Below are positions 1-49,237 of a stretch of 64,000 nucleotides of DNA, piece after piece. A program made the translations under genes and the position numbers. Location of the stretch: positions 1 through 64,000 of the forward strand of contig NSJJ01000017.1 in the NCBI GenBank assembly GCA_002632355.1. The letters are read 5' to 3'. The stretch comes from Sulfuricella denitrificans. Its GTDB lineage: Bacteria > Pseudomonadota > Gammaproteobacteria > Burkholderiales > Sulfuricellaceae. Numbering within the stretch: position 1 is the stretch's first letter; each line of letters begins with the position of its first letter. The notes below the pieces were generated by a model. That model was not told where the DNA came from. It saw only the letters and a list, made by a program, of their open reading frames with translations, and did not search any database.

Positions 1-53
1 ACGCAGAAATCACCGGCGGCTGAAAGCCGTCCGCGTGGATTGACGGGTTATGC
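1..53 (+). repeat. attC recombination site, 5' part cut by window edge
   Basis: The right arm of an attC ends in the core GTTATGC at 47-53, preceded by TGACGG as in the sites ending at 3251 and 3599. An inner GGCGGCTGAAAGCCGTCC hairpin is visible. The R'' half lies left of the window. It closes an upstream cassette and so shows that the array continues leftward. Confidence 0.8.
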
Positions 54-82
54 CACTGGTTGAAAATATTTTGAAAAAGGTA

Positions 83-111
83 TTGACTTTAATCTGATTG
101 CGGTATATACT
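83..111 (+). promoter_or_regulatory. sigma70-type promoter inside cassette A
   Basis: TTGACT (83-88) and TATACT (106-111) are separated by exactly 17 bases, a near-consensus sigma70 promoter. It lies 48 bases upstream of the first ORF of the cassette. The -10 overlaps the short palindrome GTATATAC, which could be an operator. Most integron cassettes lack their own promoter, so this one may be expressed independently of position in the array. Confidence 0.65.
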
Positions 112-158
112 TTAATCATGGTGAGGGAACGGCCCGAACCGCAAACCGGAGAAACAAA

Positions 159-308
159 ATGAACAAATTTGCCAGCCAACAAGATTACGCAAACATCGAA
201 GCGGTGAAAGAAGAATACCCCAGTGCAGCCGAGATCGTAGAAGTGGACGGCGGCTGGATGGTGTTTGACACCGTGACCGACGCAGAAACGTGGCGCAACC
301 AAGAGTGA
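159..308 (+). CDS. Small conserved-type cassette protein, 49 aa
   Basis: This ORF is too short for the supplied track. It starts at ATG 159 with GGAG seven bases upstream and encodes 49 mostly acidic residues including VEVDGGWMVFDTVTD and a WRNQE end. No function is recognised. It is the first gene of cassette A, directly behind a good promoter, and its stop overlaps the GTG start of the next ORF, so the two are probably translationally coupled. The pairing with a ribbon-helix-helix-like protein and the private promoter recall toxin-antitoxin cassettes, but neither protein shows a known toxin motif, so that reading is speculation. Confidence 0.6.
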   Translation: MNKFASQQDYANIEAVKEEYPSAAEIVEVDGGWMVFDTVTDAETWRNQE

Positions 309-484
309 TAGGCGGAAAGCGAGAAGGGGCAGGGCGAAAGCCCTCCCCGCCAGAACTGCTAAAGGTTCCGGTTTCGATTAAGTTACCGCGATGGCTGATT
401 GAGTGGATGGATTCACAGCCGGAAAGCCGCGCAGTGCTGATTGAAAACGCAATACGGAAGCAGCACAAATTGAAACCGCCCTAA
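305..484 (+). CDS. Ribbon-helix-helix-like small DNA-binding protein, 59 aa
   Basis: The ORF track starts this frame at GTG 290, but GTG 305 overlaps the upstream stop as GTGA and fits coupling better. After a basic, Pro-rich head (GKREGAGRKPSPP) comes VPVSIKLPRWLIEWMD and then SRAVLIENAIR. This is the strand-helix-helix pattern of MetJ/Arc-type antitoxins and regulators. The stop lies three bases before the R'' core of the attC at 488, as expected for a cassette gene. It probably binds DNA, possibly the palindromic -10 of its own promoter. The partner protein is of unknown function. Confidence 0.6.
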   Translation: MIGGKREGAGRKPSPPELLKVPVSIKLPRWLIEWMDSQPESRAVLIENAIRKQHKLKPP

Positions 485-487
485 GGG

Positions 488-571
488 GCATAACGATGAG
501 GTCAGCAGCGGCGTGACCATCCTCGAAAAAAGCGCCTGAGTAACACCGTCTGCTGCACCGTAGGGTTGGGC
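488..571 (+). repeat. attC site closing cassette A
   Basis: R'' GCATAAC (488-494) and R' GTTGGGC (565-571) flank an imperfect palindrome with CAGCAG/CTGCTG arms and a loop of about 20 bases. It is 84 bases long, the longest attC here. The recombination point is expected after G565. Confidence 0.75.
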
Positions 572-598
572 GGCAACTTAACTACAAGGAGAATGACC

Positions 599-889
599 AT
601 GAGCAATTGCGAACTCTGTGGCGAACCGATGCCTGAAGGTGAAGAAATGTTCAAGTACCACGGATACAGCGGAGACTGCCCAAAGCCGCCATTACCGAAA
701 CCAAAGCAGAAGATACCCGGATTGATTGCCGCTGCCGCATACGCGGACAACAAGAAGGTATCAATGCTTTTTTATACAGCGGAACAGGCACATGCTTTCG
801 TTGCTGGCATAGATGCTGATGAGCCGCCTAACAACGAGGTAAGGGGTGGCGCTTCAGCGCCGTCCAGCGACAAACGGGAGCGGCCTTGA
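599..889 (+). CDS. Cassette B hypothetical protein, 96 aa, with CxxC pair
   Basis: The track begins at TTG 566, but AAGGAG at 586-591 places the start at ATG 599 (ATG 593 is too close to it). The protein opens with SNCELCGEPMPEGEE and has a later cysteine in YSGDCPKPP, suggesting a small zinc-knuckle-like head. A Pro/Lys linker and a helical stretch (LFYTAEQAHAFVAGID) follow. The last about 20 residues are read from the attC site itself, common in cassette genes. No family is recognised; cassette context only. Confidence 0.55.
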   Translation: MSNCELCGEPMPEGEEMFKYHGYSGDCPKPPLPKPKQKIPGLIAAAAYADNKKVSMLFYTAEQAHAFVAGIDADEPPNNEVRGGASAPSSDKRERP

Positions 890-903
890 CCGCTTTGTTA
901 GAT
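826..903 (+). repeat. attC site closing cassette B
   Basis: R'' GCCTAAC (826-832) and R' GTTAGAT (897-903) bound a 78-base palindromic site with an inner GGCGCTTCAGCGCC hairpin. The GTTAGATGC end is the classical form seen in many resistance cassettes and fixes the array orientation as left to right. Confidence 0.85.
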
Positions 904-921
904 GCCGGAACCGGAGGCACG

Positions 922-2040
922 ATGATTGCTGCACTGTATGTTGAAACCGATGGCGCTTACTTTGGCATTGACGGTGTGGAACCGTGGGACGAAGCTAAGG
1001 ATGCTAGGCGCTACAGTGGAACGCTGCCAGTGGTGGCGCACCCGCCATGCCAGCGATGGGGGAAGTTTTGGGCGGGACAACCGCTATGGATTGCAAGAAC
1101 CGGAGAGCGGAAGAAAAAAGGCGATGACGGAGGATGTTTTGCTGCGGCGCTGGAAAGTGTGCGGAAGGTTGGCGGGGTGCTTGAGCACCCTTGGGGCAGC
1201 CACGCATGGCCGCATTTTGGGCTTGCCGTGCCGCCACGATCTGGCGGATGGATAAAGGCTGACGATTGCGGCGGCTGGACATGTTGCGTGGAGCAGGGGC
1301 GATACGGCCACTATGCCCGCAAGCCGACACTGCTTTATGCGGTTGGGGTGGAATTGCCTGAGCTTCGGTGGGGCAAGAGCAACCCGGTTTTTCCGCAGTG
1401 GGCGATTGATAAATACGGGGTTGAGAAGTGCAAGCGGGCTGGTGAACTGGCATTCAAGGGCGGCGGCACCAACAGCACGCCGAGAATCCACACGCCGCCC
1501 GAGTTTCGGGATTTGCTGCTGGCTATTGCCAGGAGCACGAACAAGGCATCTAACGTAGAAGTGAGCGGCCTGCGCGGCTTTTCGCGCAGGTCCGCTCGAC
1601 TGCCGGGTTGGGGGGCGGGGCAAGAACACTCATTGGCTTTTCACCTCATCTCGGTCGGGAAGGCGCGGAAGGCGGTTGTAGTGCCGCAGGAGCAGCGCGA
1701 TTGCGATAACCGCCACAAGACCAAAGAAGCAGAAAAACGCAAACGCAACGCCCGACCAAACGGAGGCGCGCTCAGCGGACCAAGATCCAGCGGCGTTAAG
1801 CCAAGCGTAGGAATAGGCAGACAACAAGCCGTAGCCAGCAGCAAGCGGCGCAAGAAGCGCGCTTACCCAAAGGAGCCGCAATCGCGCGCGCGGGGAGAGG
1901 AAGAATGTTGCTCTTGGGCGCCGTGTTTGGCGCCATGCTTCCCAGCGGGCATTTGCTTCGGCAACAGCAGACCACTGCGCTGTACCAATGAGACCGGCGA
2001 CCAGAACGCCCAGAACGGTGCCGTTCGGAACGTACCATGA
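922..2040 (+). CDS. Cassette C protein with PPCQ motif; ORF reads through attC into cassette D
   Basis: ATG 922 has GGAGG at 913-917. The first about 210 residues look like a real protein: a PVVAHPPCQRWG segment, VGGVLEHPWGSHAW, and a later PPEFRDLLLAIA. The PPCQ and LEHP pieces loosely recall the PCQ and ENP motifs of cytosine-5 methyltransferases, but the rest does not match and I do not assign activity. No in-frame stop occurs before the attC (1548-1613), so the frame runs on through the site and about 430 bases antisense to the gene of cassette D. That tail is low-complexity and basic and is probably not native. If the next cassette began with TTAG, as cassette C itself does, the stop would form at the junction. 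Confidence 0.5.
   Translation: MIAALYVETDGAYFGIDGVEPWDEAKDARRYSGTLPVVAHPPCQRWGKFWAGQPLWIARTGERKKKGDDGGCFAAALESVRKVGGVLEHPWGSHAWPHFGLAVPPRSGGWIKADDCGGWTCCVEQGRYGHYARKPTLLYAVGVELPELRWGKSNPVFPQWAIDKYGVEKCKRAGELAFKGGGTNSTPRIHTPPEFRDLLLAIARSTNKASNVEVSGLRGFSRRSARLPGWGAGQEHSLAFHLISVGKARKAVVVPQEQRDCDNRHKTKEAEKRKRNARPNGGALSGPRSSGVKPSVGIGRQQAVASSKRRKKRAYPKEPQSRARGEEECCSWAPCLAPCFPAGICFGNSRPLRCTNETGDQNAQNGAVRNVP
1548..1613 (+). repeat. attC site closing cassette C
   Basis: A perfect R'' ATCTAAC (1548-1554) and R' GTTGGGG (1607-1613) bound a 66-base site. The stem GAGCGGCCTGCGCG pairs with CGCGCAGGTCCGCTC around GCTTTT. Its flanks (AACGTAGAAGTGAG, CTCGACTGCCGGGTT) are shared with the solitary attC at 48885. 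Confidence 0.85.
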
Positions 2041-2199
2041 GAGAAGAGAGAGCGGGAGCCCCGTGATCGTAAGGCAGAGATGGGTAGAGACACCGTACTC
2101 GCCGTGACCACTGAAGAAGTTGCCGAGAGCCGCGATTGCGAGCAACGCAACAGCCCAAGCTCCATACCACTTTGCAATCTTCTTCGCGGCGCGATGCAC
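1630..2199 (-). CDS. Cassette D membrane protein, 189 aa, opposite to array direction
   Basis: The start is GTG 2199, with a G-rich stretch upstream inside the attC R'' region. Hydrophobic segments follow: AWAVALLAIAALGNFF, a SLLSWYVPNGTVLGVLVAGLIG region, LLWVSALLAPLAAGYGLL and VAFAFFCFFGLVAVIAIALLL. This gives about four or five membrane spans with charged loops. The hydrophobic periodicity makes this strand the credible coding strand of the cassette. No family is recognised. It points against the array, so it would need its own promoter rather than readthrough from an attI-side promoter. Confidence 0.6.
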   Translation of the reverse strand: MHRAAKKIAKWYGAWAVALLAIAALGNFFSGHGEYGVSTHLCLTITGLPLSLLSWYVPNGTVLGVLVAGLIGTAQWSAVAEANARWEAWRQTRRPRATFFLSPRARLRLLWVSALLAPLAAGYGLLSAYSYAWLNAAGSWSAERASVWSGVAFAFFCFFGLVAVIAIALLLRHYNRLPRLPDRDEVKSQ

Positions 2200-2206
2200 T
2201 CAAGCC

Positions 2207-2271
2207 CCCCAACGTGTAGCTAAGGGGCCGCGCGGCTTTTCGCGCGGTCCCGCTTGAGCGATGGGTTGTGC
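2207..2271 (+). repeat. attC site closing cassette D
   Basis: R'' CCCCAAC (2207-2213, first base off consensus) and R' GTTGTGC (2265-2271) bound a 65-base site with the hairpin GGGGCCGCGCG/CGCGCGGTCCC. It is followed at once by CCCAACGGGTTGG, a small extra core-like inverted pair that may be a trace of an earlier recombination. Confidence 0.75.
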
Positions 2272-2291
2272 CCAACGGGTTGGAGAGTGAG

Positions 2292-2825
2292 ATGGGATTG
2301 AGTGCGCACCAGAAGAATGGCGGACACGACGAATGGCTGACGCCACCCGAGATCCTGCGGGCGCTCGGAGCGTTTGACCTCGACCCGTGCGCCCCGGTTG
2401 TGCGACCGTGGGAAACAGCGGCCAAGCATTACACGGTGCAGGACGACGGCCTGGCGCAACCGTGGCCGGCCGGGGCGCGGGTGTGGTGCAACCCGCCCTT
2501 CGGACGCGAGGCGGTGAAGTGGCTGCGGAAGATGCGCGACCACGGAAACGGGGTTGCTTTGATTCCGGCGCGGACGGAAACCGCGATGTTCTACGAAACG
2601 GTATGGGGAGCGGCAGACGGCGTGCTGTTCATCAAGGGGCGCCCGCACTTTCACTACGTGGACGGACGGCGGGCGGATTTCAACAGCGGCGCACCAATTG
2701 CCTTGGTGGCCTACGGACGCCAGAACCTGGACGCACTCAGGCAAAGCGGCCTCGGCTTCGTGGTAGTGGGGCACAACGACACAGGTAACGGGCCGAGCGG
2801 CGATAGCCGCGAAGGTCCGCGTTGA
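2292..2825 (+). CDS. Phage-type DNA N6-adenine methyltransferase (Dam-like), cassette E
   Basis: The track starts at TTG 2268; ATG 2292 with GGAG at 2282-2285 is preferred, giving 177 aa. DEWLTPPEIL near the N-terminus, FDLDPCA at about residues 28-34 and WCNPPFG at about 65-71 are the hallmarks of the phage N6-adenine methyltransferase family. The NPPF is the catalytic motif, with target flipping and SAM binding expected from family knowledge. No restriction partner is in the cassette, so it would be an orphan methylase modifying island or host DNA. The last about 15 codons and the stop (TGA in the conserved TTGACCGC) come from the attC. Confidence 0.85.
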   Translation: MGLSAHQKNGGHDEWLTPPEILRALGAFDLDPCAPVVRPWETAAKHYTVQDDGLAQPWPAGARVWCNPPFGREAVKWLRKMRDHGNGVALIPARTETAMFYETVWGAADGVLFIKGRPHFHYVDGRRADFNSGAPIALVAYGRQNLDALRQSGLGFVVVGHNDTGNGPSGDSREGPR

Positions 2826-2839
2826 CCGCCTTGTTGGGC
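2771..2839 (+). repeat. attC site closing cassette E
   Basis: R'' GCACAAC (2771-2777) and R' GTTGGGC (2833-2839) bound a 69-base site. The distal arm TTGACCGCCTTGTTGGGC closely resembles the arm of the site ending at 903. It overlaps the 3' end of the methyltransferase gene. Confidence 0.8.
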
Positions 2840-2861
2840 GGCATTTTGAATGGAGATTGAG

Positions 2862-3278
2862 ATGACAGAGAGAAGCCACAGGCCGACCGCTGAATACCGC
2901 TACTGGCTGTATGACCCGGAAGGCGACGGGATGACCTATTACCGTACCGCCGAAGCACGCGACAGCGAAGCGCAGAAAGCGATTGACTGCTATCTGGAGG
3001 ACGGCTGGGCGCCAGAAGTTGAATTTGTCTCTGCGGGCGAAGTGACGCACTGCGCACAAGTGCTGGACAAGACCATGCGCCCCGCCGGTGAAGACCTTGA
3101 CGACGAAGGATGCGACGGCGACGGCATGTATTGGCCGGAAGGTATGGCGTGGCGCGGAAACTATGCGCTGGAGCCATTGCCGCCCAACGCAGAAGTGAGG
3201 GGCGATGCGCCGCTTTATGGCGCAGCGTCCCTCTCGACTGACGGGTTATGCGGATCAGTTGAAACGAAGAAAGGATAG
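2862..3278 (+). CDS. Cassette F hypothetical protein, 138 aa, reading across the cassette junction
   Basis: ATG 2862 has GGAG six bases upstream (ATG 2850 is also in frame). The protein is acidic, with EYRYWLYDPEGDGMTYY, an EDGWAPEVEFVSAGE segment and a DLDDEGCDGDGMYWPEG patch; no catalytic motif is recognised. It resembles the small accessory proteins common in phages, by feel rather than by a named family. Reading continues through the whole attC and over the junction into cassette G, stopping three bases before that cassette's ATG. Its last about 30 residues therefore depend on the cassette arrangement, and the two genes could be translationally coupled. Confidence 0.6.
   Translation: MTERSHRPTAEYRYWLYDPEGDGMTYYRTAEARDSEAQKAIDCYLEDGWAPEVEFVSAGEVTHCAQVLDKTMRPAGEDLDDEGCDGDGMYWPEGMAWRGNYALEPLPPNAEVRGDAPLYGAASLSTDGLCGSVETKKG
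3182..3251 (+). repeat. attC site closing cassette F
   Basis: R'' GCCCAAC (3182-3188) and R' GTTATGC (3245-3251) bound a 70-base site with stem GAGGGGCGATGCGCC against GGCGCAGCGTCCCTC. The AACGCAGAAGTGAGGGGC flank is shared with the site at 1548 and the solitary one at 48885. Confidence 0.85.
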
Positions 3279-3281
3279 GGC

Positions 3282-3548
3282 ATGGAAACGAAACTATGGG
3301 CGTTGTTGATTCCGGGGCCGGATGACGTGTGGGCGATGCCGAGCAAAGAAGCGGCCGAGGAAGCGGCGGCAAAGCACAACAAGGCGATTGAAACCGGCTT
3401 GCTGGCTGAACGCTTCTGTGTGCCAAAAGAGGCCGTGCAAGCGCGGGTGATCGAGTGGCCGTACAGCGCGGAGGAACATGCCGAGGCGATGGAAAGCGGA
3501 GAGCCAGACGTGTTTGATGGCTACGACACCGAGACGCATAACGCTTGA
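3282..3548 (+). CDS. Cassette G hypothetical protein, 88 aa
   Basis: ATG 3282 has AGGA six bases upstream. The 88-aa product starts METKLWALLIPGPDDVWAM and has an Ala/Glu-rich helix (KEAAEEAAAKHNKAIE), then a VIEWPYSAEEHAEAM segment. It looks like a small soluble alpha/beta protein; no family is recognised. The stop lies four bases past the R'' core of the attC at 3536. The upstream cassette ORF ends three bases before this start, so reinitiation is possible. Confidence 0.6.
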   Translation: METKLWALLIPGPDDVWAMPSKEAAEEAAAKHNKAIETGLLAERFCVPKEAVQARVIEWPYSAEEHAEAMESGEPDVFDGYDTETHNA

Positions 3549-3599
3549 ATTCACAGGCGGGCGGCTTTATCGCCCGTCCGGTGGAATGACGGGTTATGC
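3536..3599 (+). repeat. attC site closing cassette G
   Basis: R'' GCATAAC (3536-3542) and R' GTTATGC (3593-3599) are exact reverse complements, bounding a 64-base site with GGGCGG/CCGTCC arms around CTTTATCG. The right arm GGATTGACGGG-like sequence is close to the partial site at the window start. Confidence 0.85.
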
Positions 3600-3623
3600 C
3601 ACGGTGACAACTTGGAGAGAACG

Positions 3624-3827
3624 ATGGACGCAAAAACGAAGCGCAAGCACCTGAACGATTACTCACACGCCCACCGCGACATTGAACTGACACAGATCGC
3701 AATCGACCTCATGGAGCGTGTTGGCAACTCGGAGACTATCGTGAAGGCACTGAAGAAAAAGCGGCATGCGCACCTTCGCAGGATGGACGCGGCGGCAGCA
3801 AAACTAGGCGCACCGTATGGGGCATAA
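3624..3827 (+). CDS. Cassette H hypothetical protein, 67 aa, helical and basic
   Basis: The track starts at TTG 3612; ATG 3624 with GGAG at 3614-3617 is preferred. The product is Lys/His/Arg-rich and probably all-helical (DIELTQIAIDLMERVGNSETIVKAL, then KKKRHAHLRRMDAAAAKL). It might bind nucleic acid, but this is only a charge argument. The TAA stop is part of the GCATAAC core at 3822-3828. This is the last cassette before intI. Confidence 0.55.
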   Translation: MDAKTKRKHLNDYSHAHRDIELTQIAIDLMERVGNSETIVKALKKKRHAHLRRMDAAAAKLGAPYGA

Positions 3828-3861
3828 CTTAAATTTAACGACACCCACTGACGCCTAATTC
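3822..3861 (+). other. Half attC / array-intI junction
   Basis: An R''-type GCATAAC core (3822-3828) is present, but no GTTRRRY partner or palindromic body follows. Instead 33 AT-rich then mixed bases lead straight into the intI reading frame. I see no attI-like pair of integrase sites, no LexA-type operator and no ribosome binding site for intI here. It looks like a rearrangement scar where the last attC and the original intI leader were lost. Confidence 0.5.
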
Positions 3862-4941
3862 TTGACCACTGAACGGAGGGCCGCGAAAATACTAGTCATC
3901 GACCAAACAAACGCGACACAAGCAGCCGCGTTACACGACACGACACGTCAGCAGCCTAAGCTGCTCGACCGCATGCGCGCGGCCATCCGCACCAGGCACT
4001 ACAGCCTGCGCACCGAGCAAAACTATATTCACTGGGCGAAGCGCTTCATCTACTGGCACGACAAGCGCCACCCGGCAGACATGGGCGCACCTGAGGTCGA
4101 AGCCTTCCTATCTGCCCTGGCCACCGAGCGCAACGTCAGCGCCAGCACACAGAACCAGGCCATGCACGCCATCCTGTTTCTCTACAAGGACGTGCTCGGT
4201 GTGGATCTGCCATGGCTGGATGGAATCACCCGTGCGAAAGTATCCAAGCGCCTGCCGGTCGTTCTCACCCAGCGCGAAATCCAGTCCCTGCTACGCCACG
4301 TCAGCGGCACGAATGGCCTGGTCATCAAACTGCTGTACGGAACCGGCATGCGCCTGCTGGAATGCCTGCGGATGCGCATCAAGGATCTCGACATCGAGCG
4401 CGGCCAGATCACCATCCGCGAAGGAAAAGGCAACAAGGATCGCGTCACCATGCTTCCTGCCAGTCTGGCGGATGAACTGCGCGACCATCTGATCGCACGC
4501 AGGCGCCTGCGCGACCATCTGATCGCACGCAGGCGCCTGCACGACATCGATCTGGCCACCGGCCACGCGGATGTCGAACTACCTGACGCAATCGAGCGCA
4601 AATACCCGCGCGCGGCATCGGAATGGGCCTGGCAATACCTGTTCTGCGCGCCCGGCTACAGCACCGACCCACGAACCGGCGCCTATCGCCGCCACCACTG
4701 GAACGAACGAAACATCCAGCGCGCTGTGAGAGCGGCTGCAGAGTCCGCTGGCATCGGAAAACAGGTCCACCCGCACGCGTTGCGCCACTCATTCGCCACG
4801 CACCTGCTGGAAAGCGGATACGACATCCGCACGGTGCAGGAGTTGCTGGGACATTCTGATGTGTCAACGACGATGATTTACACCCATGTGCTGAACCGTG
4901 GCGGGCATGGCGTGATGAGTCCGCTGGATAGAATCATCTAA
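3862..4941 (+). CDS. intI: Integron integrase (tyrosine recombinase)
   Basis: This enzyme recombines attI and attC sites. It matches IntI proteins along its length: [13 protein letters not shown] and [18 protein letters not shown] in the N-terminal core-binding domain, [11 protein letters not shown] (catalytic Arg), GKGNKDR (Lys), [12 protein letters not shown] (His-x-x-Arg), [14 protein letters not shown] (His and nucleophilic Tyr). The IntI-specific insert [19 protein letters not shown] is present and separates it from XerC/D. All catalytic residues are intact. Its length (359 aa) exceeds the usual 320-340 partly through a 10-residue duplication. The TTG 3862 start is uncertain: no Shine-Dalgarno precedes it, and ATG 3973 would cut conserved residues. 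It points the same way as the cassettes, unlike normal integrons, where intI diverges. It is probably cotranscribed with the alpA-like gene 10 bases downstream. Confidence 0.93.
4477..4540 (+). repeat. 30-bp tandem duplication inside intI
   Basis: Bases 4481-4510 and 4511-4540 are identical, and the 30-base period extends back to 4477. It duplicates [10 protein letters not shown] in frame. Removing one copy restores the alignment with IntI1 between LPASLADEL and the [12 protein letters not shown] insert. The lack of any difference between copies suggests a recent slippage event or selection for identity. Confidence 0.95.
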
Positions 4942-4951
4942 GGAGAGAATC

Positions 4952-5227
4952 TTGAACACCGAAACCGCCATCATCGAGCGCCTGGACGCACTCATTTCCG
5001 CCATGAAGATGAACAGCATCCCATCTGACCGGCGCCTGTGGGACGCGGACTCCATTGCAGCCTACCTGTCTGTGTCCGTGCCGACCGTCCTGAACCGCTA
5101 CGCCTGCCGACCGGATTTCCCTGCCGCCATCCGGCTGCCGACCGCAGGCTCACGTGGAACACCGCGCTGGAACGCCAGCGAGATCATGGAATGGGCCGCC
5201 AGATACCAGGTGAAGAAACGTGCTTAA
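4952..5227 (+). CDS. AlpA-family helix-turn-helix regulator/excisionase, 91 aa
   Basis: TTG 4952 follows a strong AGGAG at 4942-4946, ten bases after the intI stop. The body RLWDADSIAAYLSVSVPTVLNR and a TPRWNASEIMEWAAR end match the AlpA/MerR-like winged helix used by prophages and islands as integrase activator or excision factor. The stop overlaps the stop of the convergent integrase gene by a few bases. From context it probably controls directionality of the tRNA-Leu integrase, and its likely cotranscription with intI would tie the two recombination systems together. Confidence 0.8.
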   Translation: MNTETAIIERLDALISAMKMNSIPSDRRLWDADSIAAYLSVSVPTVLNRYACRPDFPAAIRLPTAGSRGTPRWNASEIMEWAARYQVKKRA

Positions 5228-6219
5228 TCCAGCATCCCGGCCACATCGCTCATGTTCGGCGCGTAATACGTCGCCAGCAGAATGCGCAGATCGCGGTGTC
5301 CGCTGATCTTGGCAAGCGTCATCACATCCACCTTCGCCGCCATGCGCGTCAGTGCCTCGCGCCTGGAGTCATGAAAATGCAGCCCTTCAATCAGCGCCCG
5401 GTCGCGCGCCTTCCTGAATAGCGTGTCCAGGCTCTCCGCCTTCAGCGCAAAAACCGACTCCGCATCGATTCCCTGCAGCTGCAGCAGAATCCGGATCGCC
5501 TCTTTCGACATCGGCACATCCCGCGAATAGCCGTTTTTCGTCTTCGGCAGATGCACCACGCGCCGATCCAGATCCACGTCAGACCACTTCATTCCGCAAA
5601 TCTCGCCCGCCCGCATTGCCGTCTCGATAGCGAACAGCAGCGCAGCACCCGCGCGCGACTGCGCAGTGATCGGGATCACATCATAATCATAGCCGGACGC
5701 GAACAGAATCCGCTCGACCTCATCGTCTGAAATCCGCCGCGCACGAGGCTTGTGCGGCTCCGGCTTAGTCACGCCTTGCATCGGGTGGACATATAGCCAG
5801 CGCCATTCCTTGATCGCCACCTGGCATGCGTGGCCAAGCGTGGACCACTCGCGCAGCACAGACGCCGCAGAGACGGAAGCCAGACGGCGATCCCGCCAGG
5901 AAGCGAAATGCTCCGCATCGATATCATCCAGGCGAACGGACACCAGCGGGTCGGCGCCATCGATCATCCGCTGCAGCCGCAAACGCTCCGGACGCTCACC
6001 GCGCTTGGTCGGCAGCACCTCGCGGATATAGCGCGCCAGTAGATCCCCGAAAGTTTTATCTGGTATCATCCCCGCACGACGCGCAGAAATCTCGTGCTCA
6101 TGCCGAGCAGCCCAGGCTTCCGCCTCGGCCTTGGTCCGGAAAACCGCCGACGCACTCACCCCGCCCTTACGAACGCGAGCGCGCCAGCCCCCAGATTCCT
6201 GCTTCTTGATCGACGCCAT
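5224..6219 (-). CDS. Phage/island-type tyrosine integrase
   Basis: This is a site-specific recombinase expected to integrate the island at tRNA-Leu. ATG 6219 gives 331 aa; the track's longer TTG start at 6240 is less likely. The N-terminus has the arm-binding fold (GGWRARVRKGGVSASAVFRTKAEAEAWAARHE). A SAM-like core-binding domain follows, then the catalytic domain with AMRAGEICGMKW (Arg), KTKNGYSRDVP (Lys), HFHDSRREALTRMA (His-x-x-Arg) and GHRDLRILLATYY (His, Tyr). All catalytic positions are present, so it looks functional. It starts about 160 bases from the tRNA 3' end and runs away from it, the standard island layout. Confidence 0.93.
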   Translation of the reverse strand: MASIKKQESGGWRARVRKGGVSASAVFRTKAEAEAWAARHEHEISARRAGMIPDKTFGDLLARYIREVLPTKRGERPERLRLQRMIDGADPLVSVRLDDIDAEHFASWRDRRLASVSAASVLREWSTLGHACQVAIKEWRWLYVHPMQGVTKPEPHKPRARRISDDEVERILFASGYDYDVIPITAQSRAGAALLFAIETAMRAGEICGMKWSDVDLDRRVVHLPKTKNGYSRDVPMSKEAIRILLQLQGIDAESVFALKAESLDTLFRKARDRALIEGLHFHDSRREALTRMAAKVDVMTLAKISGHRDLRILLATYYAPNMSDVAGMLD

Positions 6220-6375
6220 TTCTGTCCAATCGCTGTCCAAATCCTGTCCACTAGCATGCTATAAGTTGCAGTTTTTTGCTAGACGTTGATGTTTTCTGGT
6301 GGACCAGAAAACGGCCAGAGATTGGCCATTTATAAGGCTTTGAGGTGATTTTTGGTTATTTAATAAAATAGGTGG

Positions 6376-6461
6376 TGGTGCGAAAGGAGAGACTCGAACT
6401 CTCACGGGGGTTGCCCGCTGGAACCTAAATCCAGTGCGTCTACCAATTCCGCCACTTTCGC
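6376..6461 (-). tRNA. tRNA-Leu(UAG)
   Basis: The reverse strand reads GCGAAAG...CTTTCGC acceptor arms, a long variable arm (GCGGGCAACCCCCGT), TTCGAGTC in the T loop and an encoded CCA at 6376-6378. The anticodon loop TTTAGGT gives anticodon UAG. It is the apparent insertion site of the island; the 3' end remains complete. Confidence 0.95.
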
Positions 6462-9457: not shown

Positions 9458-10861
9458 TTACCCGGAGTGCGCCACGATAAAGCGTTTCACCTCATCGACA
9501 CTTGAATCCATGACTTCGTAGCGCTGTGGCCGTTTTTCAAGATCTGCCAGGTCGACTGGGCGCTCGGCATGACGGCCCAGGGCTTCGTGTATGGTCTCGT
9601 CGAACTTGGCTGCCAGAGCGGTTTCCAGACATACCAGCGGGATGCCTGCTTCAAGGTGTTCCAGCCCGACCTTGACGCCATCGGCTGTATGGGTGTCGAT
9701 CATCACGCCGTATTTCTGGTAGACGTGACGAATGGTTTCGAGGCGGTCGGCATGGCTGCTTTCGCCCGAGGTGAAACCGAATTCCTTCACTTTGGCGAAG
9801 TGCGGTGTCGTCGACAGGTCGAAGCTGCCGCCGCCATCCACCTTCTGCCACAGTGCCTTGACCACAGCCGGGTCGCGCCCAACCAGGTCGTAAATAAAGC
9901 GCTCGAAGTTGGATGCCTTGGAAATATCCATGGAGGGGCTGCTGGTGTGCTGGGTTTCCGGGCGCGGGCGGTAAGCCCCGGTGCGGAAGAACTCATCCAG
10001 CACATCGTTTTCATTGGTGGCAACGATCAGCCTGGAGATGGGCAGGCCCATCTGCCTGGCGATATGGCCCGCGCAGACATTGCCGAAATTGCCGGACGGC
10101 ACCGAGAACGACACTTTCTCGTCGTTGCTGCCGGTGACCGCGAAATAGGCCTTGAAGTAGTACACTACCTGGGCCGTCACGCGCGCCCAGTTGATCGAGT
10201 TGACCGCGCCGATCTTGTGCTGCGCCTTGAACTCCAGATCGTTGGAAACGGCCTTGACGATGTCCTGGCAGTCATCGAATACGCCCTTGACGGCGATGTT
10301 GAAAATATTCGGCTCCTGCAACGAAAACATCTGCGCCGTCTGGAACGGGCTCATCTTGCCCCGCGGCGAAAGCATGAAGACTTTCACCCGTTTCTTGCCC
10401 AGCATGGCGTATTCCGCCGCGCTGCCGGTGTCGCCCGATGTCGCGCCGAGAATGTTGATCTCGGCATTTTCCTTTTCCAGCACATACTCGAACAGGTTGC
10501 CGAGCAGCTGCATCGCCACGTCCTTGAATGCCAGCGTCGGGCCGTAAGACAAACCGAGGATATGCAGGCCCGGCTCAAGCGTTTTGACCGGCGTGATATC
10601 GTCGCTGCGGAAAATCTCAGCGGTGTAAGTCTTGTCGACAATCGCCCTGAGATCCGCAGCCGGAATGTCGTCGGCAAAACGGCGGATCACCTCGAAGGCC
10701 AGGTCGCGGTAATTCATGCCGCGCATGGCCGCGAGTTCATCCTTGCTCAATTTTGGATAGGCATCGGGTATGGTCAGGCCGCCATCCGTGGCGAGCCCGC
10801 CGAGCAGAATTTCGGTAAAGGTCTTGGGCGGCATGCCGCCGCGGGTGGATAAGTATTTCAT
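9458..10861 (-). CDS. thrC: Threonine synthase
   Basis: PLP enzyme converting O-phosphohomoserine to threonine. The 467-aa long-form protein has YLSTRGGMPPKTFTEILLGG at the N-terminus, the PLP lysine in PTLAFKDVAMQ and GATSGDTGSAAEYA, the phosphate-binding loop. VPSGNFGNVCAG follows. Its start overlaps the stop of the homoserine dehydrogenase gene by four bases, so hom and thrC are cotranscribed. Its end lies only 14 bases from the convergent hpnE stop, with no clear terminator between. Confidence 0.95.
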   Translation of the reverse strand: MKYLSTRGGMPPKTFTEILLGGLATDGGLTIPDAYPKLSKDELAAMRGMNYRDLAFEVIRRFADDIPAADLRAIVDKTYTAEIFRSDDITPVKTLEPGLHILGLSYGPTLAFKDVAMQLLGNLFEYVLEKENAEINILGATSGDTGSAAEYAMLGKKRVKVFMLSPRGKMSPFQTAQMFSLQEPNIFNIAVKGVFDDCQDIVKAVSNDLEFKAQHKIGAVNSINWARVTAQVVYYFKAYFAVTGSNDEKVSFSVPSGNFGNVCAGHIARQMGLPISRLIVATNENDVLDEFFRTGAYRPRPETQHTSSPSMDISKASNFERFIYDLVGRDPAVVKALWQKVDGGGSFDLSTTPHFAKVKEFGFTSGESSHADRLETIRHVYQKYGVMIDTHTADGVKVGLEHLEAGIPLVCLETALAAKFDETIHEALGRHAERPVDLADLEKRPQRYEVMDSSVDEVKRFIVAHSG

Positions 10862-12171
10862 GCGTTGAGTTCTTCCAGACGGATGCGCGTGACCTTGTCG
10901 GCAATAGTCGGCAGTGCCTCGATTTTGACAATCGCCTGGTTGATGGCTTTTTCAATGGTCAGATGGGTGAGCAGGATCACATCGACCCGCTCTTCCCCTT
11001 CCGCCGGTTCCTTCTGGATCATGGCGTCGATGGAAATGCCCAGGTCGGCCAGGATGCGGGTCACATCGGCCAGCACGCCCGGCTTGTCAAACGCCTTGAG
11101 GCGCAGATAATAGGAGGTGTGCACCTCTTCGATCGGCAGGATCGGCGTGCTGGAGAGCGCGTCGGGCTGGAAGGCCAGGTGCGGCACGCGGTTTTCCGGA
11201 TCTGAGGTCAGCATCCGGGTTACGTCCACCAGATCGGCCACCACCGCACTGGCAGTCGGTTCTGCACCGGCGCCGCGACCGTAATACATGGTCGCGCCCA
11301 CGGCGTCGCCTTTCACCAGCACCGCATTCATCACGCCCTCGACATTGGCGATCAGGCGGTTGGCCGGGATCAGGCAGGGATGAACGCGCAGCTCGATCCC
11401 CTTGTCGGTGCGCCGGGTGATACCCAGCAGCTTGATGCGATAGCCCAGTTGCTCGGCATAGGAAATGTCTTCCTTGGTCAGCTTGCTGATGCCCTCGGTG
11501 TAAGCCTTGTCGAACTGCATCGGAATACCGAAACCGATGGCGGACATGATCATCAGCTTGTGGGCGGCGTCCACGCCTTCGATATCGAAAGTCGGGTCGG
11601 CCTCAGCGTAGCCCAGTTCCTGCGCCTGTTTGAGCACGGTATCGAACGCCAGACCCTTGTCGCGCATTTCGGAAAGGATGAAGTTGGTGGTGCCGTTGAT
11701 GATGCCGGCGATCCACTCGATGCGGTTGGCAGAAAGCCCCTCACGCAGTGCCTTGATGACCGGGATGCCGCCTGCGACAGCCGCTTCGAACGCCACCATC
11801 ACGCCCTTGTCCTGGGCCGCCTTGAAAATTTCGTTGCCGTGCACTGCCAGCAAGGCCTTGTTGGCGGTCACCACGTGCTTGCCGTTGGCAATGGCCTTCA
11901 TCACCAGGTCTTTGGCCAGGGTATAGCCACCGATCAGTTCCACCACGATATCGATCTCGGGATTGTCCACCACGTCCATCGGATTGGTGGTGATGGCCAG
12001 TTCGTTGCCGGCAAATTTGCGCGCTTTCTCCAGATCGCGCACCGCCGCCATGGTGACGCGAATCTCGCGCCCGGCGCGGCGGGTGATTTCTCCGGCATTG
12101 CGGCGCAATACGGTGAGCGTGCCGCCGCCGACGGTGCCGAGTCCTAACAGTCCTACATTGATGGGTTTCAT
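10858..12171 (-). CDS. hom: Homoserine dehydrogenase
   Basis: NAD(P)-dependent reduction of aspartate semialdehyde to homoserine, the branch to threonine and methionine. The 437-aa monofunctional form has the Rossmann start VGLLGLGTVGGGTL, the family signature region AGIINGTTNFILSEM with ELGYAEADPTFDIEGVDAAHK, and a C-terminal ACT domain (YYLRLKAFDKPGVLADVTRI) for threonine feedback. No fused aspartokinase is present. It sits between alaA and thrC, an order common in betaproteobacteria. Confidence 0.95.
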   Translation of the reverse strand: MKPINVGLLGLGTVGGGTLTVLRRNAGEITRRAGREIRVTMAAVRDLEKARKFAGNELAITTNPMDVVDNPEIDIVVELIGGYTLAKDLVMKAIANGKHVVTANKALLAVHGNEIFKAAQDKGVMVAFEAAVAGGIPVIKALREGLSANRIEWIAGIINGTTNFILSEMRDKGLAFDTVLKQAQELGYAEADPTFDIEGVDAAHKLMIMSAIGFGIPMQFDKAYTEGISKLTKEDISYAEQLGYRIKLLGITRRTDKGIELRVHPCLIPANRLIANVEGVMNAVLVKGDAVGATMYYGRGAGAEPTASAVVADLVDVTRMLTSDPENRVPHLAFQPDALSSTPILPIEEVHTSYYLRLKAFDKPGVLADVTRILADLGISIDAMIQKEPAEGEERVDVILLTHLTIEKAINQAIVKIEALPTIADKVTRIRLEELNA

Positions 12172-12204
12172 GTTCGCTTACTTCCAGTTCAAGATTTGAT
12201 TATT

Positions 12205-13431
12205 TCAGGAGCCATGCTGCTTGCGGTAATGCTCGAGGAAACGCGCAATACGCCCGATGGCTTCCTGCAGGTCGTCGAGGTTGGGCAGGAACACCACGCG
12301 GAAATGGTCCGGCGTCGGCCAGTTGAAGCCGCTGCCCTGCACCAGCAGGACTTTTTCTTCCAGCAATAGCTCAAGGATGAATTCCTGATCGTTGTCGATC
12401 GGGTACATTTTCGGATCAAGGCGCGGGAACAGGTACATTGCCCCCTGCGGCTTGACGCAGGTCACACCGGGAATCGAGGTCAGCATTTCCCAGGCCAGGT
12501 CGCGCTGGCGGCACAGACGGCCGCTCGGCGCCACCAGATCATCGATACTCTGGTAGCCGCCAAGCGCCGTCTGAATGGCATACTGCGCCGGTGCATTGGA
12601 GCACAGCCGCATCGAGGCCAGCATGGTGAGGCCCTCGATGTAATCCCTGGCATGACGCTTTTCGCCCGACACCACCAGCCAGCCGGCGCGATAGCCCGCT
12701 GCACGGTAATTTTTCGACAGGCCGTTGAAGGTGATGAACAGCACATCGTCCGCAAGGGAAGCGATGGAAGTATGCTGCGCCCCATCGTACAGCACCTTGT
12801 CGTAAATTTCGTCGGAATAAACGATGAGCTGATGCTGGCGCGCGAGCTCCACCACCTCCTGCAGCAATTCCACCGGATACAGTGCGCCGGTCGGATTATT
12901 GGGATTGATCAGCACGATGGCACGGGTCTTGGGCGTGATCTTGCCGCGGATATCGTCCAGATCGGGCAGCCAGCCGGCCGCCTCATCGCACACGTAATGG
13001 CGCGGGGTGCCGCCTGCGAGGGTGACTGCGGCCGTCCAGAGGGGGTAATCCGGCATTGGCAGTAAAACTTCTTCGCCGTTGTTGAGCAGGGCCTGCATCG
13101 CCATCACGATCAGTTCTGAAACACCGTTGCCGATATAGATATCCTCGATCTGCACATCGCGGATGTTCTTCTGCTGGGTGTAGTGCATCACCGCCTTGCG
13201 CGCGGCGAACAGACCCTTGGAGTCGGTATAGCCGGAGGCGTTGGGCAGATTTATGATGACGTCGTGGACGATCTCTTCCGGCGTTTCGAAGCCGAACTGC
13301 GCGGGGTTGCCGATATTCAGCTTGATCACGCGATGGCCGTCTTCTTCCATCTGCCGCGCGCGCGCCAGTACCGGGCCACGGATGTCGTAGCAGACATTAT
13401 TGAGCTTGGTGGATTTGAGTACGGGCTGCAC
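12205..13431 (-). CDS. alaA: Alanine aminotransferase AlaA-type
   Basis: PLP class I aminotransferase making alanine from pyruvate and glutamate. It is very close to E. coli AlaA in recalled sequence: KLNNVCYDIRGPVL, KLNIGNPAQFGFETP, DIYIGNGVSELIVMAMQALL, VLINPNNPTGALYP, VYSDEIYDKVLYD and the PLP lysine in TFNGLSKNYRAAGYRAGW. At 408 aa it is full length. It lies 33 bases upstream of hom with the same direction, so pyruvate-family and aspartate-family synthesis are probably linked in one transcript. Confidence 0.9.
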   Translation of the reverse strand: MQPVLKSTKLNNVCYDIRGPVLARARQMEEDGHRVIKLNIGNPAQFGFETPEEIVHDVIINLPNASGYTDSKGLFAARKAVMHYTQQKNIRDVQIEDIYIGNGVSELIVMAMQALLNNGEEVLLPMPDYPLWTAAVTLAGGTPRHYVCDEAAGWLPDLDDIRGKITPKTRAIVLINPNNPTGALYPVELLQEVVELARQHQLIVYSDEIYDKVLYDGAQHTSIASLADDVLFITFNGLSKNYRAAGYRAGWLVVSGEKRHARDYIEGLTMLASMRLCSNAPAQYAIQTALGGYQSIDDLVAPSGRLCRQRDLAWEMLTSIPGVTCVKPQGAMYLFPRLDPKMYPIDNDQEFILELLLEEKVLLVQGSGFNWPTPDHFRVVFLPNLDDLQEAIGRIARFLEHYRKQHGS

Positions 13432-48735: not shown

Positions 48736-49237
48736 GCTGGAAGGTCAAGGGCCCTGAAAATCAACGGATGGCTATCGCTGATCACAACTGGACTTGTTGA
48801 AGCAGTTTACATTTGTCCATTTTCGACACGTTGCTGCCGGTCGCGACCTTCTGCATCAACGTCTGCAATGCGTTACAAAGCTGTCAAGAACGTGGAAGTG
48901 AGGGGCAGCCGAAGCGTAGCGGAGGGAACCAAAACGCAGCTTTTGGCTGTCCCGCTCGACTGCCGGGTTAGCGTAGTAATCGGCCCTATGCCGCAAATCG
49001 CGCCGATGAAACACATGCCGTTGCGGCTGTGGCAAAGTGGAATGCGGCGCTGCGGAAGACCGATGTAGCAATGGTGCAAATTGCCCGCGGGTTAGCGTGG
49101 TCCTGGGTGACGTCATCGACATTGGTGAATCGGCTCGGCGGTTCGCAGCCGCTGGGCCGATATCCCGTTTGAGAGAGTGAGCTAGACGACGTACCCGATG
49201 TGGCGCCCCATTCCAAACTGAATGCTTGGAGCAAGCC
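48736..49237. other. Accessory stretch without a credible gene (contains solitary attC)
   Basis: Between patZ and the IS110 remnant no ORF convinces; the short frames in the track cross the attC or run antisense. It holds one attC (48885-48973) and a second GTTAGCG core-like sequence at 49091-49097 without a visible palindromic partner. Confidence 0.5.
48885..48973 (+). repeat. Solitary attC-like site outside the array
   Basis: GAACGTGGAAGTGAGGGGC on the left and GTCCCGCTCGACTGCCGGG on the right, ending in GTTAGCG (48967-48973), match the arms of the island attCs at 1548 and 3182 closely. Between them GGCAGCC pairs with GGCTGTC. The left core is CAAGAAC, off the RYYYAAC consensus, so the site may be partly decayed. 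No intI or attI is near. Confidence 0.75.

Follow-up and report, generated by a model that had tools for sequence, protein, structure and literature searches.

A prophage-borne integron of canonical geometry with reversed cassette genes in Sulfuricella denitrificans

Introduction

In integrons, the choice of the attC strand orients each cassette for the Pc promoter beside attI. Recombination through the bottom strand is established for attC sites (review PMC8946536). Qi et al. (2023) described three complete phage integrons and one cassette-less integrase (In0) in temperate phages, and 17 attC clusters; the gene direction was typical or divergent in the described cases, DNA methyltransferase cassettes recurred, and the bottom strands of phage attC sites recombined with attI1 (PMC9892861). 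In the reverse integrons of Treponema, the integrase gene intI is turned and the cassette genes are not (PMC7691350). Here we analyze an integron at the left end of a stretch of 64,000 nucleotides from Sulfuricella denitrificans (assembly GCA_002632355.1, contig NSJJ01000017.1, positions 1 to 64,000 of the forward strand; this whole stretch is called the window). It resembles the phage integrons of Qi et al. in that integron parts lie in a phage genome and include a methyltransferase cassette, but it differs from them in that its integrase belongs to a viral IntI clade that has an attI of its own and cassettes reversed systematically, the gene running against the polarity of its own attC site.

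Results

A preliminary description of the window had recorded an intI with an attC array before it, and had noticed that every cassette open reading frame (ORF) except the one at 1630-2199 (minus strand) reads in the direction of intI; both observations stand. Eight attC sites precede intI, of which seven are complete and one is cut by the contig edge. The array is cut off on the left by the assembly, because base 1 of the window is the end of contig C13, and it runs past that edge as had been supposed.

1..54, minus strand: most distal attC of the visible array, truncated at the contig edge (covariance model 1-48, 31.9 bits)
488..571, minus strand: attC (covariance model 36.8 bits)
826..903, minus strand: attC (covariance model 25.5 bits; profile 31.0 on minus versus 11.6)
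1548..1613, minus strand: attC (covariance model 61.4 bits)
2207..2271, minus strand: attC (covariance model 58.6 bits)
2771..2839, minus strand: attC (covariance model 60.2 bits)
3182..3251, minus strand: attC (covariance model 73.2 bits)
3536..3599, minus strand: attC (covariance model 57.1 bits)

The cores of these sites follow the pattern GCCTAAC...GTTAGATGC. Because R'' and R' are near-palindromic and the cassette ends are complementary in either reading, the cores give no polarity of the array. Reading polarity from the R''/R' complementarity of the cassette ends was dropped as symmetric and directionless, and a strict ten-pair layout score performed at chance level on controls (49/40/44), so that a profile and a covariance model were used instead. 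What does reveal polarity is the L'' arm with its extrahelical bases. By eye, these bases lie in the right arm in the window sites, and an automatic alignment of the arms agreed for five of the seven sites, one of the others being tied and one misaligned; the left arm contains these bases in the normal integron of the host on contig C23. The polarity profile (47 columns) was built from 133 attC sites of 33 loci in other genomes, oriented by the position of intI alone. It gave the correct orientation for 129 of the 133 sites when these were left out, and had zero matches in 255 kb of shuffled sequence. On the minus strand the window sites had scores of 31-48, compared with -3 to 13 on plus, and every site favoured minus by 19 to 46 units. 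The covariance model was made from 49 phage and host attC sites, excluding the window sequences; its automatic RNAalifold structure had just 8 pairs and was rebuilt with 16. This model assigned all eight window sites to the minus strand, at 25.5-73.2 bits, and found no plus-strand attC in the window array at E up to 1. The attC sites point away from intI, and the geometry of the integron is canonical. A lone attC-like site was also detected at window 48885-48973 (minus strand, 34.7-44.6 bits), distant from every integron.

Between the array and the catalytic gene lies an attI, as in a complete integron.

3822..3888, minus strand: attI (R box 3822-3828, GCATAAC, then 3828-3888; alignment with phage loci)
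3889..4941, plus strand: intI, phage-lineage integron integrase (open frame from 3862; TIGR02249, alignment, trees)
4477..4536, plus strand: tandem duplication within intI (30-bp perfect repeat, in frame, +10 residues)

Its crossover is at 3827|3828 and its conserved body reads CTTAAATTTAACGACACC... When the region before intI was aligned with phage relatives, the sequence to the left of RYYYAA|C was variable and that to the right of it, CTTAAATTC-CGACACC..., was conserved; an attI with such a crossover is kept in about 20 related loci. The crossover and the start codon position of intI are 61 bases apart in the window and its closest sublineage, and 81-85 elsewhere. This interval, only 61-85 bases in the relatives, is so short that there is small room for Pc. 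A LexA box before intI was not enriched in the phage loci.

The preliminary description had read the attC sites as pointing toward intI, had seen no attI beside the gene and had placed intI at the wrong end of the array, naming as outcomes that would overturn this view an opposite attC orientation from a covariance model or an attI within 3700-3990. An opposite orientation and an attI at 3828-3888 are what we found, and intI stands at the ordinary end of its array. It had also offered, as one of two readings, that an inversion or deletion fused an array tail to an intI, which we take to mean the tail of a normal bacterial array and an unrelated intI. The genes do read toward intI, and cassette 1 does end at an R box beside it, but in such a fusion the attC sites would point toward intI, whereas they point away; the junction, which the description had suggested seeking in related genomes, is an attI kept in about 20 phages, and the identical layout recurs in 30 loci. 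We regard this fusion as hardly conceivable; it is also unneeded, as reversed genes in a phage integron lineage explain the shared direction.

The content of the array was then assigned cassette by cassette.

1..493: cassette 8, incomplete; ORFs 159-308 (plus) and 290-484 (plus), from the sequence
494..831: cassette 7, gene reversed; ORF 599-831 (plus), relatives in phage arrays
832..1553: cassette 6, gene reversed, phage early gene; ORF 922-1553 (plus), phrog_12600 (E=4e-69)
1554..2212: cassette 5, the sole gene in normal direction; ORF 1630-2199 (minus), membrane-protein-like, from the ORF list
2213..2776: cassette 4, gene reversed; 2292-2776 (plus), phage-type DNA adenine methyltransferase (Dam-type)
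2777..3187: cassette 3, gene reversed; ORF 2862-3187 (plus), from homology
3188..3541: cassette 2, gene reversed; ORF 3282-3548 (plus), from the codon score and a ribosome-binding site on plus
3542..3827: cassette 1, adjoining attI, gene reversed; ORF 3624-3827 (plus), from the sequence

Seven of the eight cassettes are reversed, and their genes thus do not run in the attC direction in which Pc could read them. The direction was called by homology for cassettes 3, 4, 6, 7 and 8, and by start sites or codon score for cassettes 1 and 2; in cassette 1 a GGAG site precedes the ATG at 3624 and the stop codon lies within the R box. Cassette 8 has a sigma70-like box (TTGACT-17-TATACT) at about 84-112, and phage arrays L266, L256 and L254 have relatives of its ORF 290-481 on their gene strand. 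Cassette 7 has relatives, likewise reversed, in phage arrays L171 (79%) and L287/L288 (62%). The product of cassette 6 is 62.6% identical to one of Pseudomonas phage Persinger, and that of cassette 3 matches Pseudomonas phage USP_25 (43%) and, beside attC sites, L169 (86%) and L171 (69%). The methyltransferase of cassette 4 (PF05869, E=1.1e-12; phrog_111, E=4e-43) is up to 93% identical to those in IMG/VR phage contigs, several of which have attC arrays. Like that of cassette 6, the genes of cassettes 3 and 4 count as early genes of phages. No relative of cassette 5 was present in any locus fetched. In five phages with relatives of the genes (Persinger, USP_25, PARCL1pr, 8P and Bcep176), the profile found no attC in the stretches fetched.

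Genes and intI share one direction because the cassette genes are reversed relative to their own attC sites. This bears on a Treponema-type reverse integron, in which intI would be turned relative to attI and array, and in which, by definition (PMC7691350), intI and cassette genes are transcribed in one direction, as they are oriented here. In Treponema denticola, however, the first cassette lies directly downstream of the turned intI, whereas the window array lies upstream of the 5' end of intI, beside attI, and what is turned is the genes within the cassettes. We therefore consider this type extremely unlikely.

To score direction across loci, we used codon use in the ORFs between adjacent attC sites, with duplicates removed. 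In phage contigs with intI, all attC sites upstream of intI except one point away from it. In phage loci with intI, 43 clear calls were reversed and none was normal, and phage arrays reached by way of cassette genes gave 25 and 0; over all 30 phage loci this makes 68 reversed against 0 normal, and 31 more cassettes were weak or tied. Bacterial integrons gave 17 reversed against 144 normal cassettes (161 clear calls; Fisher test against phage, 1.8e-42). Reversal is thus a minority state in bacteria, whereas it covers all clear calls in the phage loci. An independent test looked for a ribosome-binding site and start codon within 90 bases of attC. Of 78 phage cassettes, 57 had these on the reversed-gene strand and 8 on the opposite one; in host cassettes, 47 were in the normal direction and 9 opposite. 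A longest-ORF test had called most window cassettes normal; it clipped ORFs that enter attC and was fooled by antisense frames, and was replaced by codon scores, the start-site test and homology. The suggestion of an uncommon layout in the preliminary description can be kept for the shared direction of genes and intI, which is unusual and paralleled elsewhere, but not for the intI-attI-attC geometry, which is ordinary.

Sedentary chromosomal integrons of Beta- and Gammaproteobacteria, including those of the host on C23 and C33, share this geometry and the attC type (one profile fits both), but their genes follow the attC polarity. The host genome (G000) has two ordinary integrons with normal cassettes at C23:60697-65850 and C33:256492-260943, as well as attC clusters at C26:34289-36848 and C23:102027-103616, for which no intI was noted. 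In bacterial integrons (L012-L083, L315-L394), the roughly one in ten clear calls that are reversed are clustered in few arrays, and may point to entry of phage cassettes into bacterial integrons. The integron of a Gallionella metagenome-assembled genome (MAG; L329) has three reversed cassettes and an intI outside the phage clade. Phage contig L176 has two divergent attC groups, at 3071-5643 and 9594-13142 (3 plus, 10 minus).

The intI product matches the full TIGR02249 profile over residues 34-358 (454.7 bits, cut-off 265). It is 89 (L254), 85 and 83% identical to integrases of IMG/VR contigs, with identities to phage integrases there reaching 89-92%. The two integrases of the host itself are 59-61% identical to it, and those of 150 related genomes no more than 65%. 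In the tree it groups with three viral rows (support 97-98) in a clade of 32 rows, 28 of them viral (96), and IQ-TREE placed it within a clade of 36 rows, 32 of them viral (support 96). IntI thus falls in a viral clade (support 96-99) and not in the host lineage, where that of a sedentary chromosomal integron would be. Three bacterial rows stand inside the viral clade (L315, L316 and L319); the arrays of L316 and L319 are reversed, and these two loci are probably prophages. These identities and trees assign the integron to a phage-borne lineage of integron integrases. In contigs L254 and L256 the phage integrase gene int follows immediately after intI, and then come endolysin and tail genes. 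Among the phage contigs reached through cassette genes, none of 14 records, which may be fragments, had an intI above the cut-off. The ATA at 3889-3891 occupies the start codon position, where the phage relatives have ATG in the alignment, and the relatives in L254 and L256 are 340 residues long. Together with the 30-bp duplication, the ATA suggests that intI may be impaired in the window.

The integron lies inside a prophage: window 1-6376 forms the integrase end of one that is inserted in tRNA-Leu.

4952..5227, plus strand: AlpA/excisionase-like small helix-turn-helix protein (phrog_4996, E=1e-14; phrog_66 excisionase, E=6e-7)
5224..6240, minus strand: phage-type tyrosine integrase of the prophage (PF00589, E=1e-25)
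6376..6398, no strand: prophage attachment core, the 3' end of tRNA-Leu (6376-6461, minus strand)

The prophage integrase is 43-48% identical to integrases of the phage or prophage loci L212 and L319. The 23-base attachment core recurs identically at C31:16876-16898, the other prophage end, and C31:1-16.9 kb encodes portal, major head, major tail, tape measure and endolysin proteins; the ends of C13 and C31 are most simply read as the two ends of one prophage. Searches for terminase and portal in the same genome with phrog_2 and PF04860 were negative, and the portal on C31 was later recovered by PHROGs.

These surroundings also bear on whether the platform is an ordinary bacterial integron, non-viral itself, that captured phage cassettes. 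The host does own two ordinary integrons, and phage cassettes could in principle enter a bacterial attI (PMC9892861), but intI, attI, int and the attachment core are all parts of the prophage and the intI clade is viral. We judge a bacterial platform very unlikely.

A second attI is present in the same prophage at C31:1-210 (L397), with the sequence CTAGAATTAGGCGACAC..., before a small ORF and the portal gene; its motif had no occurrence in 1.9 Mb of shuffled sequence. The preliminary description had thought a second intI/attI possible to the left of the window; a second attI does exist, on C31, but no intI accompanies it. C31:1-127 equals window 368-494 and ends exactly at the crossover, after which come the second attI and the late genes. 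Cassette 8 hence abuts cassette 7 in one place and the second attI in another, each time exactly at its crossover, which would reflect either a second copy or a mixed population. In a Rhodocyclaceae MAG (L319:10001-12803), the interval from an excisionase-like gene to int contains an attC and, at 11627, a second attI motif.

Cassettes have changed places among the relatives. The methyltransferase cassette is common to the window and six phage arrays, in differing order, and relatives of cassettes 7 and 3 are adjacent in L171, where the window has three other cassettes between them. L278 and L279, from different metagenomes, are mostly 99-100% identical and differ by gain or loss of whole cassettes, including beside attI, with the differences breaking at the attC core. 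These whole-cassette differences imply that the arrays are mobile and that recombination is active in relatives.

A phage integron could also carry reversed cassettes as a neutral relic, the cassettes of one founder phage having spread without selection for operon direction. The pool could be shared by descent, and phage arrays without a visible intI do share cassettes. Over the 30 loci, however, there is little cassette sharing and there are zero clear normal cassettes, while cassette 5 of the window shows that normal ones can enter. Such a relic appears to us unlikely, with some probability left to it.

Discussion

We hold it highly probable that the window contains a prophage-borne integron of ordinary geometry at the 3' end of an early operon, where reversed cassettes have accumulated since only these can be read. 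Phage transcription, whose source we infer, would pass along the array to attI and intI, and in relatives on to int, and IntI would presumably be made by read-through in early transcription. IntI would excise and insert cassettes at attC and attI via the bottom strand, as in bacteria, with incoming cassettes entering at the promoter-distal end; phage accessory genes such as methyltransferases and those of small early proteins would thereby be reshuffled. Because attC polarity fixes the orientation of entry at attI, only cassettes with reversed genes would be readable by the operon, and selection may retain these, as the operon direction would express them alone.

Several observations speak against this account. 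The gene of cassette 5 is in normal orientation, and codon scores call only 3-4 of 6 window cassettes reversed, the others being weak. With ATA where relatives have ATG and ten duplicated residues, the window intI may be inactive. The assembly lacks the central part of the prophage and a terminase with it, and IMG/VR contigs are frequently fragments. More tentatively, the relatives could form a dedicated class of phage integron: a rearrangeable accessory early operon with its own reversed pool, IntI from the early transcript and sometimes a second attI (C31; L319), moving genes between operons in growth. We put this forward as a possibility somewhat short of an even chance.

Phage integrons were already known; systematically reversed cassettes appear to be new. 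Our literature search, outside which preprints and most subscription journals lay, turned up no description of reversed cassettes in association with a viral IntI clade. The reversed cassettes are not simply bacterial cassettes inserted backwards, because attC and gene would then turn together, and they make the origin of a cassette testable. Integron direction called from gene direction or from palindromic cores can mislead.

The phage lineage keeps the recombination geometry of integrons and turns their expression logic to suit a viral operon. This suggests that phages sustain their own cassette pool, and it offers a direct route to rapid exchange of phage accessory genes, for example methyltransferases, which may aid evasion of restriction.

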